From: an uncultured Lysobacterales bacterium
GTDB lineage: Bacteria; Pseudomonadota; Gammaproteobacteria; Xanthomonadales; SZUA-36
NCBI GenBank assembly: GCA_937927755.1
Contig: CALBDB010000059.1
Span: 1 to 62,675 of the forward strand
Reading direction: 5' to 3'
DNA: 62,675 nucleotides
A program made the position numbers and the translations under genes. A model generated the notes under the pieces. That model saw only the letters and a program-made list of their open reading frames with translations, was not told the origin of the DNA and did no database searches. Shown piece by piece: positions 48,947-53,005 of the stretch (position 1 is its first letter; each line of letters opens with the position of its first letter).

Positions 48947-49342
48947 ATGTATAAGCTCAAATTGCGCCGTTGCCTGGTTTTCACACCGCTTCTGATGTTG
49001 TTATCCACCTCCATTGCTGCAAATGAAATACATCAGCTTGACTGGACCGGGGCCAGGGAAGAGTGGGGGCGATTGCTGTTCTGCCAGCATATTTACAAAC
49101 TGCCCGAGGTCAGTCCTCGTTTGTACAGCTTTGATATTGAGCATTGTGACAAAGCCGGACAGTTAATGGCTGTGGCCGTAAGCAAATATTCGAAACAGGA
49201 ACAAGTGGACCTTAAAAACCAGGCTCAGCAGCATGCAGCCCTGTTATTCAGAAACACATCAGAGCCCTATCACTCGGTCGTTGCCTGCCGTGCTTTTTGT
49301 CAGGAGTTAGCCGAAAAACAGGACACGCGTAATGACCGATAA
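48947..49342 (+). CDS. Small secreted four-cysteine protein of unknown function
   Basis: The product is 131 residues. Signal peptide: MYKLKLRRCLVFTPLLMLL...SIAA, cleavage near residue 24. The mature part has four Cys (LLFCQHIY, IEHCDKAGQ, VVACRAFCQEL), which suggests two disulfides, and WTGAREEWGRL near the start. I do not recognise the family. It overlaps the start of the glycosyltransferase gene by 11 bp, so the two are translationally coupled and may share a job. No strong ribosome site precedes its ATG. Confidence 0.68.
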   Translation: MYKLKLRRCLVFTPLLMLLSTSIAANEIHQLDWTGAREEWGRLLFCQHIYKLPEVSPRLYSFDIEHCDKAGQLMAVAVSKYSKQEQVDLKNQAQQHAALLFRNTSEPYHSVVACRAFCQELAEKQDTRNDR

Positions 49343-51203
49343 AACAGATTTTTCACTGGAACTGGACGTTAACCCTTCAAGCGGGTTTAAGCCGTTGCCG
49401 GACTGGGTTGCGTTTGATGTTTGCAAGGCCTACCCACTTCCCGGCGGCGAACTATTACTGCATAACCCGCACAATAAAAAACGCGCCTTGGTTAAGCCCG
49501 AGGTTTATGCGTCTCTTTTACGCTGCGACCAATTCAAGACGCTCGATCAGCATGTTGCCAAAATCATAGAACTCAACCCGGGGATGCAGGGGCAGCAAGC
49601 CGATATCCGCAAGGTTTTCGAGACCATGCTCGAAAGCGGCATGATGGTGTCCGCGAAAGAGATAAGTAACAAATTTAAAAGCAAAAACAGCATACCGGTG
49701 CGGAATGATGCTGCTTCACCCGTTGTCGCCATCGTTACATGGGAAAGGCCGGAAGCACTCGAAAGGCTGCTTACTTCCATCGCCACCAATTGCGAGACAA
49801 GAAAAATCCAGCGCCTGTACGTTGTGGATGATTCGCGTAAACCTGAAAATATAAATAAAAACAAAAAACTGGTCGAAATTTTTTCTTCCAGGGTTGACGC
49901 GTCACTATTCTATTTCGGCCAGGATGAGCAAAAAGCCCTTTTGGATGGCCTGGCAGACCGACTGCCGGAATATCAAAATGCCATAAGGTTTTTAGCTGAC
50001 CAGTCCAGGTGGCGTAATCACTGGACCAGTGGCCTGGCTCGAAATTTCGCCTTGCTGCTTTCCTGTGGGCGCCGCCTGGTGGTAATGGATGACGACACCC
50101 TTTGCGATGTCTATAACCCGCGACGACCCAAACCGGATATTTCCTTTTCAGACGAACCCCGCGAAGCAGATTTTTTCTCCCGTGAACAGGATTGGGAGCC
50201 AAGACACCAGTCCATCAACCCTGACCCCGTGACTCGCCATATGCAATGCCTGGGTTTGTCTTTTTCGGAAGCGCTGGAAGTATTGGGTCAAAACCATCTA
50301 AAACCATCTGGCTTTGCAAATGCAACCACTCGAATAAGTAACGATCTTCATTCGGATTCGCCCATACTGGTGACTGAATGCGGCTCCCTGGGTTGTCCGG
50401 GAACAGGTCGAAATACCTGGTTGCCTGAAATGGCCCCTGAATCTTTAAAAAGAATGCTGGCATCAAAACCTGCCACAAAGAATGCCCTAAGTAGTCGCCT
50501 GGTATGGAGCGGTCGCAATAACCCCCACTTTGCACCGCGGCCTAACATGTCCGCAATAACCGGATTTGACAACCGGAAATTGTTACCTCCCTACTTTCCC
50601 ATTATGCGTGGCGAAGATCGTTTGTTTGGTTACATGCTGGACTTTATTTACCCGGATGCTGTTTCACTCGATTATCCTTGGGCAGTGCCACATTTACCAA
50701 TTCCCAAGAGAGAATGGCAGAAAAAGGATCTTGATTTTTCACCGAACCATTCCTTTCCAAGGTTCTTTTTTGAGAAGGTCATGGATCAAAAACCTCTTTG
50801 CCTTGCAACATCACCAACTGAGCGCTTGAAAGCCCTGTCTGCCTGGTTTGACGGTATGGCTGCTGCATCAGCAGAATCATTGGAAAAAATGTACAGGGAT
50901 ACCCGGCTGCATACTATTTCACTTCAGCTCAAGGACTTGAGCCTTTTGTTGGAAAAAGGGGAGTCTGCTCCGGCCGATTGGAAAGCGTATTTGAAAGATG
51001 GTATTGAGCAGTTAACGGCCGCCATGGCCCGGGCCAGCGATGAAAACTTTCCAACAAAGGGGCTGCCACAAACAATGGAAGGCAGTGAACTCATCGCTTT
51101 CTGGAAAGAGGTTTGGGCGGAATATGCAACTGCCCTTAATGCGTGGCCGAAAATCCGGCAAGCTGCAGCCGAAATTGTCGATGGAGCCGGCGATACGCCC
51201 TGA
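49332..51203 (+). CDS. GT-A-type glycosyltransferase with a possible PqqD/RRE-like N-terminal domain
   Basis: The product is 623 residues with no signal peptide or membrane helix. Residues about 20-105 resemble the small winged-helix PqqD/RiPP-recognition fold: YPLPGGELLLHNPHNKKRAL, then VYASLLRCDQFKTLDQHVAK, then ADIRKVFETMLESGMM. Residues from about 128 are a family-2 style glycosyltransferase: VVAIVTWERPEALERLLTSI, RLYVVDDS, GLARNFALLLSCGRRLVV and the metal-binding VMDDDTLCD (DDD at 253-255). The C-terminal 150 residues are helical. The sugar and acceptor are unknown. It follows the small secreted Cys protein with an 11-bp overlap. GT assignment is fairly firm; the N-terminal domain call is a hypothesis from pattern only. 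Confidence 0.7.
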   Translation: MTDKTDFSLELDVNPSSGFKPLPDWVAFDVCKAYPLPGGELLLHNPHNKKRALVKPEVYASLLRCDQFKTLDQHVAKIIELNPGMQGQQADIRKVFETMLESGMMVSAKEISNKFKSKNSIPVRNDAASPVVAIVTWERPEALERLLTSIATNCETRKIQRLYVVDDSRKPENINKNKKLVEIFSSRVDASLFYFGQDEQKALLDGLADRLPEYQNAIRFLADQSRWRNHWTSGLARNFALLLSCGRRLVVMDDDTLCDVYNPRRPKPDISFSDEPREADFFSREQDWEPRHQSINPDPVTRHMQCLGLSFSEALEVLGQNHLKPSGFANATTRISNDLHSDSPILVTECGSLGCPGTGRNTWLPEMAPESLKRMLASKPATKNALSSRLVWSGRNNPHFAPRPNMSAITGFDNRKLLPPYFPIMRGEDRLFGYMLDFIYPDAVSLDYPWAVPHLPIPKREWQKKDLDFSPNHSFPRFFFEKVMDQKPLCLATSPTERLKALSAWFDGMAAASAESLEKMYRDTRLHTISLQLKDLSLLLEKGESAPADWKAYLKDGIEQLTAAMARASDENFPTKGLPQTMEGSELIAFWKEVWAEYATALNAWPKIRQAAAEIVDGAGDTP

Positions 51204-51211
51204 TGGCCAGG

Positions 51212-52204
51212 TCAGCGGCGGGATTGGCGTAACTCACTGGGGGCTGCACCTGTCCAGTTTTTGAATGCACGTGAAAATGAACTGGGCTCGGAAAAGCCCA
51301 GTAACAGAGAAATTTCTGTCAGGGTCAGGCTGTTGTCCATGATGTACTGTTCAGCCAGTTCACGCCGCATTTCAACCAGAATCGTCCTGAAATTATTGTC
51401 AACGTCTGCCAGCTTGCGGTGCATGGTGCGTACTGACATATGCAGTGCATTCGCCGCTGTTTCATCACTGGTGTCACCGGTCGGCAACAGGTCAATTAAA
51501 ACCGCCTTCAGCCTCGCCACGATATCTTCACGGTGCATACGCGCCAGGCGCTTGGTAATCACCTGGTCATGCAGCAAGGTCATTTCCGGGCTCCCGCCGG
51601 GGAGTGTTTCGTCGACAAGTGATAAGGGGATCAGTAATTGGTTGTCAGCCTGGTCAAAGTTCAGCTGACAGGCAAAGTATTCAAAATAGGGTTTGATATC
51701 TTTCGGCTCAACGTGCCTGAAACTAACCGCCTGTAACCGGAACTTCTCACCGCTGATCAAGCGGCACATCCTGGTAATCAGTGCCAGTGCCCCGTCATCT
51801 CTGGCAAAGATATTTGCACTGTCCTGATTCAACCTGAAAGTAACAACCAAACATACATCTCTCTCCTCAAGGACGACAGAGGCCTTGTCGTTAACGACAC
51901 GAATGAATCTTTCCGCGCGCTGAAGGGCTTTTCTCAGAGTCAGACTGGCGTCCCAGGCATAACCCAGGGCACCCAATTGCGAAGGAAGATAAACCGAAGC
52001 CGAGCGAAGCCCGAAGGCCTCGTCGCCGGACAACTCCGCTGCCTTGGCCCGAAGCCGGTCAATCTTCTGATACGGCAAGCGTATACACGGGTCAATCGGC
52101 GGTTGGACGTTTATGTCCTCCGCTGCAAAAAGAGGGGCCGGATCAATACCGTAGGATTCAATGGTTTTCCACAGATTAACCACGCTGGGTGCAAAAACCG
52201 ACAT
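51212..52204 (-). CDS. AraC-family transcriptional regulator
   Basis: The product is 330 residues. The N-terminal 200 residues match the 'arabinose-binding AraC N-terminal' (OruR/ArgR-like) sensor type (LWKTIESYGIDPAPLFAAEDI, YQKIDRLRAKAAELSGDEAFGL). The C-terminal DNA-binding domain has both helix-turn-helices: ANALHMSVRTMHRKLADVDN and LTLTEISLLLGFSEPSSFSR, then AFKNWTGAAPSELRQS. The ligand is unknown. It is divergent from a two-gene unit of tiny genes, with GGTCAA repeats 21 bp apart in between. It is convergent with the glycosyltransferase gene (8 bp). Confidence 0.9.
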   Translation of the reverse strand: MSVFAPSVVNLWKTIESYGIDPAPLFAAEDINVQPPIDPCIRLPYQKIDRLRAKAAELSGDEAFGLRSASVYLPSQLGALGYAWDASLTLRKALQRAERFIRVVNDKASVVLEERDVCLVVTFRLNQDSANIFARDDGALALITRMCRLISGEKFRLQAVSFRHVEPKDIKPYFEYFACQLNFDQADNQLLIPLSLVDETLPGGSPEMTLLHDQVITKRLARMHREDIVARLKAVLIDLLPTGDTSDETAANALHMSVRTMHRKLADVDNNFRTILVEMRRELAEQYIMDNSLTLTEISLLLGFSEPSSFSRAFKNWTGAAPSELRQSRR

Positions 52205-52264: not shown

Positions 52265-52295
52265 TTTCGGTCAACTGAATGTCCGCTTTGGTCAA
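52265..52295. promoter_or_regulatory. Direct GGTCAA repeats with 21-bp period, candidate AraC operator
   Basis: TTTCGGTCAA (52265-52274) and CTTTGGTCAA (52286-52295) share GGTCAA at an exact 21-bp spacing, two helical turns, as AraC-type operators do. They lie between the regulator start (52204) and the first small gene (52323), 28 bp before its ATG. Confidence 0.5.
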
Positions 52296-52322
52296 GCGGG
52301 CCAGGCCTGTCTTGCCTAAAGT

Positions 52323-52538
52323 ATGCCCATCGAAAACGCAGCCGATGGAATAGCAGCAATGCAGGCAGAGGAAAAAATGTTGCAGGCGGAAATTGAATTC
52401 TGGCGCTACATGATTGAGAGCCGAAGAGGGACAGTTTCTGAGCAGGCAACCGAACGTATGCTGAATGCATGCGAGTTGGCTCAACGAAAGTTAATGATGA
52501 TGGACAGCAAGTCGCCACCCGTCCGAACCAGGCAATAA
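52323..52538 (+). CDS. Small helical protein, first gene of an AraC-divergent unit
   Basis: The product is 71 residues, mostly a charged amphipathic helix (MQAEEKMLQAEIEFWRYMIE, ERMLNACELAQRKLMMM) with a basic tail. There is no signal peptide. The start has no clear ribosome site; ATG at 52359 is an alternative. I do not recognise it. Its position next to an AraC operator and 14 bp before a membrane peptide gene with an excellent ribosome site supports its being real. Confidence 0.55.
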   Translation: MPIENAADGIAAMQAEEKMLQAEIEFWRYMIESRRGTVSEQATERMLNACELAQRKLMMMDSKSPPVRTRQ

Positions 52539-52552
52539 ACAGGAGATCGAAG

Positions 52553-52645
52553 ATGGAGCACAAAATCATGAAAAACATCATGCGGATCGTGGTTGCCGGC
52601 TCAATCATTGCGATTACCGTCAATGTCCTGGTGATTTTTGGATAA
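52553..52645 (+). CDS. 30-residue single-helix membrane peptide
   Basis: The ATG at 52553 is preceded by AGGAGATCGAAG, among the best ribosome sites in the window. The peptide opens with a basic stretch (MEHKIMKNIMR), then one membrane helix (IVVAGSIIAITVNVLVIFG), then TAA at 52643. Its size and layout are those of small bacterial membrane peptides that tune larger complexes or transporters. It is 14 bp after the 71-residue gene and just before the tandem hairpin RNAs. Function is unknown. Confidence 0.6.
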   Translation: MEHKIMKNIMRIVVAGSIIAITVNVLVIFG

Positions 52646-52721
52646 GTCTTTTACAGGTAAGTGTGGGCGTCAGTAATTTGGTTTTGGGGTTATCGGTAGC
52701 AAGCGCCCGCTACCGGGTTTA

Positions 52722-52790
52722 TGCCCCGGCTTCGTCTAACCCTGGTGGATTCCCCCCCCCTTTCGCCAGTTTTGAAGCCGGGGTATTTTT
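52722..52790 (+). ncRNA. Hairpin RNA module 1 with C9 apical loop
   Basis: A 12-bp stem, TGCCCCGGCTTC (52722-52733) with GAAGCCGGGGTA (52774-52785), encloses TAACCCTGGTG. An inner 6-bp stem, CTGGTG (52742-52747) with CGCCAG (52764-52769), has the apical loop GATTCCCCCCCCCTTT. TTTTT follows the outer stem, so it can also terminate transcription of the small-gene unit. It is homologous to module 2. Confidence 0.55.
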
Positions 52791-52841
52791 AAATTTTGTG
52801 GTGTAGTTTTTGAGTGTAGTTTTATGTTGCGTTGTTTAAGT

Positions 52842-52907
52842 CCCCGGTTCCAGTAACCCTGGTGTTTCGTCCTCCTTCACCAAATTCCGGAATCGGGGCA
52901 TTTTTTT
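52842..52907 (+). ncRNA. Hairpin RNA module 2 with anti-SD-like apical loop
   Basis: A 10-bp stem, CCCCGGTTCC (52842-52851) with GGAATCGGGG (52889-52898), is followed by seven T. Inside are TAACCCTGGTG, as in module 1, and the inner stem TGGTG (52860-52864) with CACCA (52878-52882). The apical loop TTTCGTCCTCCTT contains CCTCCTT, the anti-Shine-Dalgarno sequence of 16S rRNA. Stem bases differ from module 1 in a paired way (CTTC/GAAG against TTCC/GGAA). It also serves as a terminator. Confidence 0.55.
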
Positions 52908-52911
52908 GCCC

Positions 52912-52941
52912 AAAAAAAAGGCCCCGGTTTTACCCGGAGCC
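52912..52941 (-). terminator. Rho-independent terminator of the asnB-thrABC operon
   Basis: On the minus strand GGCTCCGG pairs with CCGGGGCC (one U-G) around GTAAAA, followed by eight T. It lies 65 bp past the thrC stop and 5 bp from the end of RNA module 2 on the other strand. Confidence 0.88.
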
Positions 52942-53005
52942 TACGCCTCGATAAAAACACCCCTTGAACTTAAGAACAACCGGCAAGGGAAAAAGTTGGT
53001 AAAAC

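Follow-up and report, generated by a model that had tools for sequence, protein, structure and literature searches.

What might two neighbouring hairpins with C-rich loops do behind two very small open reading frames of an uncultured Lysobacterales bacterium? The initial annotation of the window (the whole stretch of DNA analysed, 62,675 nucleotides) described two tandem modules, each running from outer stem through inner stem and C-rich loop to a T-run. Both modules are borne out by reading of the sequence and by folding: the segment 52700–52930 folds at −74.6 kcal/mol (z = −3.55), none of 200 shuffles is equally stable, and the two C-rich loops that had been claimed are present, C9 at 52752–52760 and CCTCCTT at 52871–52877. 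hpA, a third hairpin that is likewise conserved, was missing from that annotation, as were the AraC-type regulator and the two small ORFs upstream. The features of the locus are as follows.

51212–52204, minus strand: AraC-family regulator (Arabinose_bd and HTH_18, from Pfam on the window protein), divergent from the cassette
52269–52297, plus strand: operator-like box, GGTCAACT..TGTCC..GGTCAAGC, with direct repeats ~21 bp apart, between the regulator and sORF1
52359–52538, plus strand: sORF1, 59 aa from the conserved start given by alignment (71 aa from 52323)
52553–52645, plus strand: sORF2, 30 aa, hydrophobic
52695–52714, plus strand: hpA, stem GGTAGC/GCTACC, loop AAGCGCCC
52721–52789, plus strand: hpB (module 1), outer stem, inner stem, C9 loop and moderate U-run
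52838–52907, plus strand: hpC (module 2), outer stem, inner stem, CCTCCTT loop (anti-SD-like) and T7 run
52919–52942, minus strand: thrC terminator (terminator scan) of the convergent gene, outside the array and directly abutting hpC

As read from the sequence, the outer stem of hpB pairs 52721–52734 with 52773–52786 and its inner stem 52742–52749 with 52762–52769, around a TTC9T loop. The outer stem of hpC, read in the same way, pairs 52838–52851 with 52889–52899 plus the U-run, and its inner stem TGGTG/CACCA lies at 52860–52864/52878–52882, with CCTCCTT in the loop. A direct repeat of 31 nt (77% identity, spacing 117 nt) is common to the two modules, and the window contains just two exact copies of TAACCCTGGTG, at 52737 and 52854. 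A scan of the window saw no separate promoter for the hairpins, which may therefore exist only as mRNA 3′ ends. At 52891–52942, the hpC U-run and the thrC terminator adjoin as an inverted repeat, so that the ends of the convergent transcripts could base-pair with each other.

Is the array more than a local curiosity? When 41 genomes were searched with the DNA sequence, the stretch turned up in the window's genus, where the gene order is a 59-aa ORF, a ~30-aa ORF, hpA, hpB, a variable linker, hpC and convergent thrC; the linkers between hairpins vary and are not conserved. One genome, G005, is without hpC, and its hpB bears a strong T7 run; in another, G003, the contig stops shortly after hpC and thrC is on another contig. 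The initial annotation had proposed a covariance-model search of related genomes, and such a model of hpA and hpB (R1), run on 39 genomes from the uncultured Lysobacterales-type family to which the window belongs, recovered the array in 12 of them (6/10 of the window's genus and 6/6 of a second genus), with both the paired changes and the loops kept. In the second genus, one more C-run hairpin (hpB′) accompanies hpA and hpB, and the loop of hpC contains CCTCCTCC. Although the gene downstream differs, being thrC in the window's genus and another gene in the second, the hairpins are linked to the AraC regulator, sORF1 and sORF2 in all 12 loci. A refined model (R3) found the array in no genome beyond these 12 among 398 of the order. 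The array is not essential, given that 27/39 family genomes lack it and that the search of the order yielded no further copy.

Several further matches were set aside. Across 369 genomes of the class, R3 gave five marginal matches (E from 7e-5 to 6e-4). When folded, L108 proved to be an ordinary terminator and the other four to be terminator-like hairpins whose loop is C-rich or CCTCC; Rfam matched none of the five, and we treat them as chance or independent occurrences. A match in G002 to R2, mostly a sequence model, overlies coding sequence, lacks the module fold and was rejected. Separately, four of the six second-genus genomes (L053:1700–1940; L052, L056 and L057) have roughly 200–250 nt between hpB′ and hpC that include conserved blocks. 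This stretch is single-copy where detected, reaches no Rfam family at threshold in the loci scanned, and is possibly another structured RNA.

The claim that the stems differ by paired changes, so that structure rather than sequence is kept, proved real, with strong covariation across the 12 genomes. In a 12-sequence model alignment of hpA and hpB, both partners have changed in 17 of 24 pairs (double changes), paired cells make up 95.5% and the covariation score is 0.595. Here the model itself aligned the six distant rows, which biases the alignment towards the structure; the six same-genus rows, aligned by sequence alone, already contain 8 double-changed pairs. In slid controls the paired fraction is never above 51.4% and the score never above 0.185, and no shuffle attains the observed values. 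In hpA, all cells are paired and 4/6 pairs show double changes over the 12 genomes; in the outer helix of hpB the corresponding values are 98.5% and 6/11. The outer stem of hpC has 98.3% of cells paired, double changes in 5/12 pairs and a score of 0.458, against no more than 55%, two double-changed pairs and 0.142 in its slid controls.

The loops, by contrast with the stems, hardly vary. Over 29 hairpins the loop cores, either C7–C9 (hpB, hpB′) or CCTCCT (hpC), are 92–100% identical, whereas inner-stem arms are 31–53% identical. The hpB loop is C7–C9 in 12/12 genomes, GTCCTCCT in the hpC loop is invariant across five same-genus copies, and the hpA loop is CGCCC in 11/12 genomes and TGCCC in the remaining one. 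The array thus has the stable stems and conserved unpaired C-rich loops that characterize the class of C-rich-loop sRNAs.

What else belongs to the cassette? The window regulator matches PF12625 (E = 3.7e-34) and PF12833 (E = 2.8e-17); a divergent ORF homologous to it occupies the same place in all 12 hairpin-bearing genomes, as judged by eye, the Pfam scan being of the window protein. The conserved box between regulator and sORF1, whose window form is GGTCAACTGAATGTCCGCTTTGGTCAAGC, is visible in the 12 loci and in several other genera that have sORF1, and the AraC protein would presumably bind it. A −10-like TAAAGT stands at 52317–52322 in the window, and TAAAGT or TAAACT follows the box in most loci. 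Neither small protein is assigned by domain searches: sORF1 has no Pfam or NCBIfam match, and sORF2, with counterparts of 24–39 aa in 12/12 loci, has none above cut-off. sORF1 is spread more widely than the hairpins, occurring in 27/39 family genomes and 9/14 genera, and the DNA downstream of its weaker homologues, when scanned, showed no C-rich hairpin like those of the array. Hence the RNA array was probably gained by, or lost from, a pre-existing AraC–sORF1 unit. On the far side of the regulator, window positions 49332–51203 (plus strand) encode a protein of 623 aa whose match to glycosyltransferase-2 is weak at best; G019 and G050 (L054, L055) have a similar protein on the downstream side of the array, which suggests a long-standing linkage.

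Hairpins of this design also occur away from the cassette. The pattern CCCCGG..C6..CCGGGG, run on the 39 genomes with a reversed control pattern, gave 18 listed matches against 0 for the control; among the matches listed are the cassette hairpins, a few chance matches and, at a second locus type, five hairpins built in the same way. These five (in G005, G019, G050, G048 and G049) each lie, by inspection, beside a winged-helix regulator of one type. In the second genus they are without a U-run and upstream of a kinase-like gene. These dispersed copies argue for the C-loop hairpin as an independent unit. A CCTCCT hairpin pattern found only cassette copies, tRNA genes and chance matches over the family. 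At the second locus type (L085, L091, L096 and L084, ~1200–1480 on the hairpin strand), the hairpin is preceded by a conserved stretch with CCCCCCTGGCC and an GGAAAGCCACC...GGTGGCTTT terminator; it has no Rfam match and is a candidate for a further C-rich sRNA.

Alongside the observed structure, covariation, loop constraint, cassette conservation and dispersed copies, we propose a function that we regard as likely by analogy: the hairpins would be tandem trans-acting sibling sRNAs in the 3′ UTR of sORF1–sORF2, with C-rich loops that would block G-rich or Shine–Dalgarno sites, in line with the suggestion in the initial annotation that they might titrate or block ribosome sites. The short operon sORF1–sORF2–hpA–hpB–hpC would be transcribed as one unit from a promoter that is probably under the divergent AraC-type regulator. 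Partial termination, or RNase cuts within the unconserved linkers, could yield individual RNAs, each module forming a stable stem that would display an unpaired C-rich loop, C7–C9 in hpB and hpB′ or CCUCCU in hpC. By pairing with G-runs or Shine–Dalgarno sequences in many mRNAs, the loops would repress translation, perhaps with help from the small protein(s), as from CcaF1 in Rhodobacter. G6 near ATG is ~1.5 times as frequent as the reversed control in the window's genus; an equal excess is seen in genomes without the array, so this is not a target signal specific to the array.

Could the modules instead be duplicated intrinsic terminators, or 3′-end stabilisers of the sORF1–sORF2 mRNA, with loops that have no role? 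Several modules do end in U-runs, the sole genome without hpC carries its strong T7 run on hpB, and no promoter of their own was seen for the hairpins. Termination needs no fixed loop, however, and near-invariant loop cores on diverged stems are the reverse of what terminators alone would lead one to expect. Some conserved members, moreover, have little or no U-run (hpB′ GGGGCCGCCATAA and the G006 hpC GGGGCAACCCCG), and the second-locus hairpins of the other genus, which stand upstream of a gene, have none. The suggestion in the initial annotation that the modules are simply duplicated terminators is thereby made unlikely.

Two other readings accept a role for the loops but place their partners elsewhere. 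In one, a G-rich leader before hpA would pair with the C-run loop of hpB, as a pseudoknot or by self-sequestration, and control the operon mRNA in cis. G-runs of 4–8 do lie between sORF2 and hpA in 10/12 genomes (52686–52689 in the window, G8 in G003, G7 in G004), and the pairing is attractive by eye; yet the G-run is missing in two genomes and a row-swap test gives it no support, since leaders pair with their own loops no better than with swapped ones (sum −145.2 against a mean of −144.5, p = 0.40). We consider this cis structure highly improbable. In the other, the C-rich loops would bind a protein or soak up another RNA, and would not act on mRNAs. Such a sponge or protein-binding array would be consistent with the near-identical loops, which recur within one transcript and at dispersed loci; nothing positive was found for it, however, and C-rich-loop RNAs of similar shape that have been studied by experiment act on mRNAs, making it very unlikely. 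We retain trans-acting sibling sRNAs as the preferred reading. More tentatively, and with somewhat less than even confidence, we suggest a dual-specificity operon of an origin independent of alphaproteobacterial CIN1/Cuckoo, in which one regulator-controlled transcript would carry G-run loops (C7–C9), SD loops (CCUCCU) and its own small protein cofactor(s).

More broadly, C-rich-loop sibling sRNAs tied to a small protein are already known in Alphaproteobacteria, and C-run loops in Actinobacteria. A gammaproteobacterial operon that unites the two traits, with a divergent regulator adjoining, suggests that the same solution has evolved convergently, and it makes the small protein as a general partner of such arrays a testable question. 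The array also adds a family undetected by Rfam 15 and defined by covariation over 12 genomes. A text search of the open-access literature, whose coverage is partial, found no description of this array, and Rfam gave no family at threshold anywhere in the window.

How, then, does the array compare with known systems? The likeness to the Cuckoo RNAs of Rhodobacter drawn in the initial annotation holds for the design and fails for membership. The Cuckoo RNAs (ar14/NfeR1; CcsR1–4 with ccaF1, at the CIN1 locus) are likewise tandem hairpins with hypervariable stems and fixed, anti-SD-like C-rich loops, and in Rhodobacter they are co-transcribed behind a small protein gene. Repression of mRNAs through CCUCCUCCC loops that pair with their G-rich start regions has been experimentally shown or supported for NfeR1/ar14 (PMC10746234, PMC7143759). 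RNase E cuts CcsR1–4 out of the 3′ UTR of an mRNA that encodes a small protein, and that protein helps in the process (PMC8625941); the layout of the array fits this arrangement. The ar14 covariance model (RF02344), by contrast, gives a best score of 14.6 bits against a gathering score of 58.8, and even with E allowed up to 10 it does not appear among the hits in the window. Furthermore, ar14 has an unpaired CCUCCUCCC-type motif in every hairpin loop, whereas only hpC of the array has CCUCC(UCC) and hpB and hpB′ have C7–C9. The CcsR/CIN1 locus has a DUF1127 protein, a domain found in neither sORF1 nor sORF2, and the array differs further in its adjoining divergent AraC-type regulator and its gammaproteobacterial lineage.

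The 6C/B11 RNAs of Actinobacteria resemble the array in having stem-loops with C6 and C9 loops, the last of which is a terminator; the array belongs to a different phylum and has a cassette with small ORFs and AraC and an extra CCUCCU loop. For 6C, of which Rfam presumably contains a model, no match appeared among Rfam hits of short stretches at E up to 10. The C-rich loops of B11 pair with G-tracts at ribosome sites and repress (PMC12395582). Closer in taxonomy is sX13 of Xanthomonas, apparently from the same order as the array host, which has three stem-loops with 4C, 4C and 5C loops that act on G-rich motifs and represses by binding G-tracts near start codons (PMC3771888). Architecture and location set the array apart from it: sX13 is a single three-stem sRNA next to polA, whereas the array consists of separate terminator-like modules with C7–C9 loops behind small ORFs, adjoining sORF1/sORF2 and thrC or other genes. 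In the window the ErsA/Pseudomon-1 model (RF01719) places its pair of hairpins on hpA and hpB, correctly ordered, at 18.3 bits, and it also scores in two relatives (15.4 and 12.4 bits), always far below its gathering score of 50 bits; ErsA is a stand-alone sRNA, unlike the cassette array. NmsRA/NmsRB of Neisseria are tandem sibling sRNAs with anti-SD motifs; compared by description, they have their own promoters and are not described as having C-run loops or linked small ORFs (PMC5362039). Taken by analogy, the best explanation is that the array, while not detectably homologous to Cuckoo/CcsR, 6C/B11 or sX13, would work as they do.
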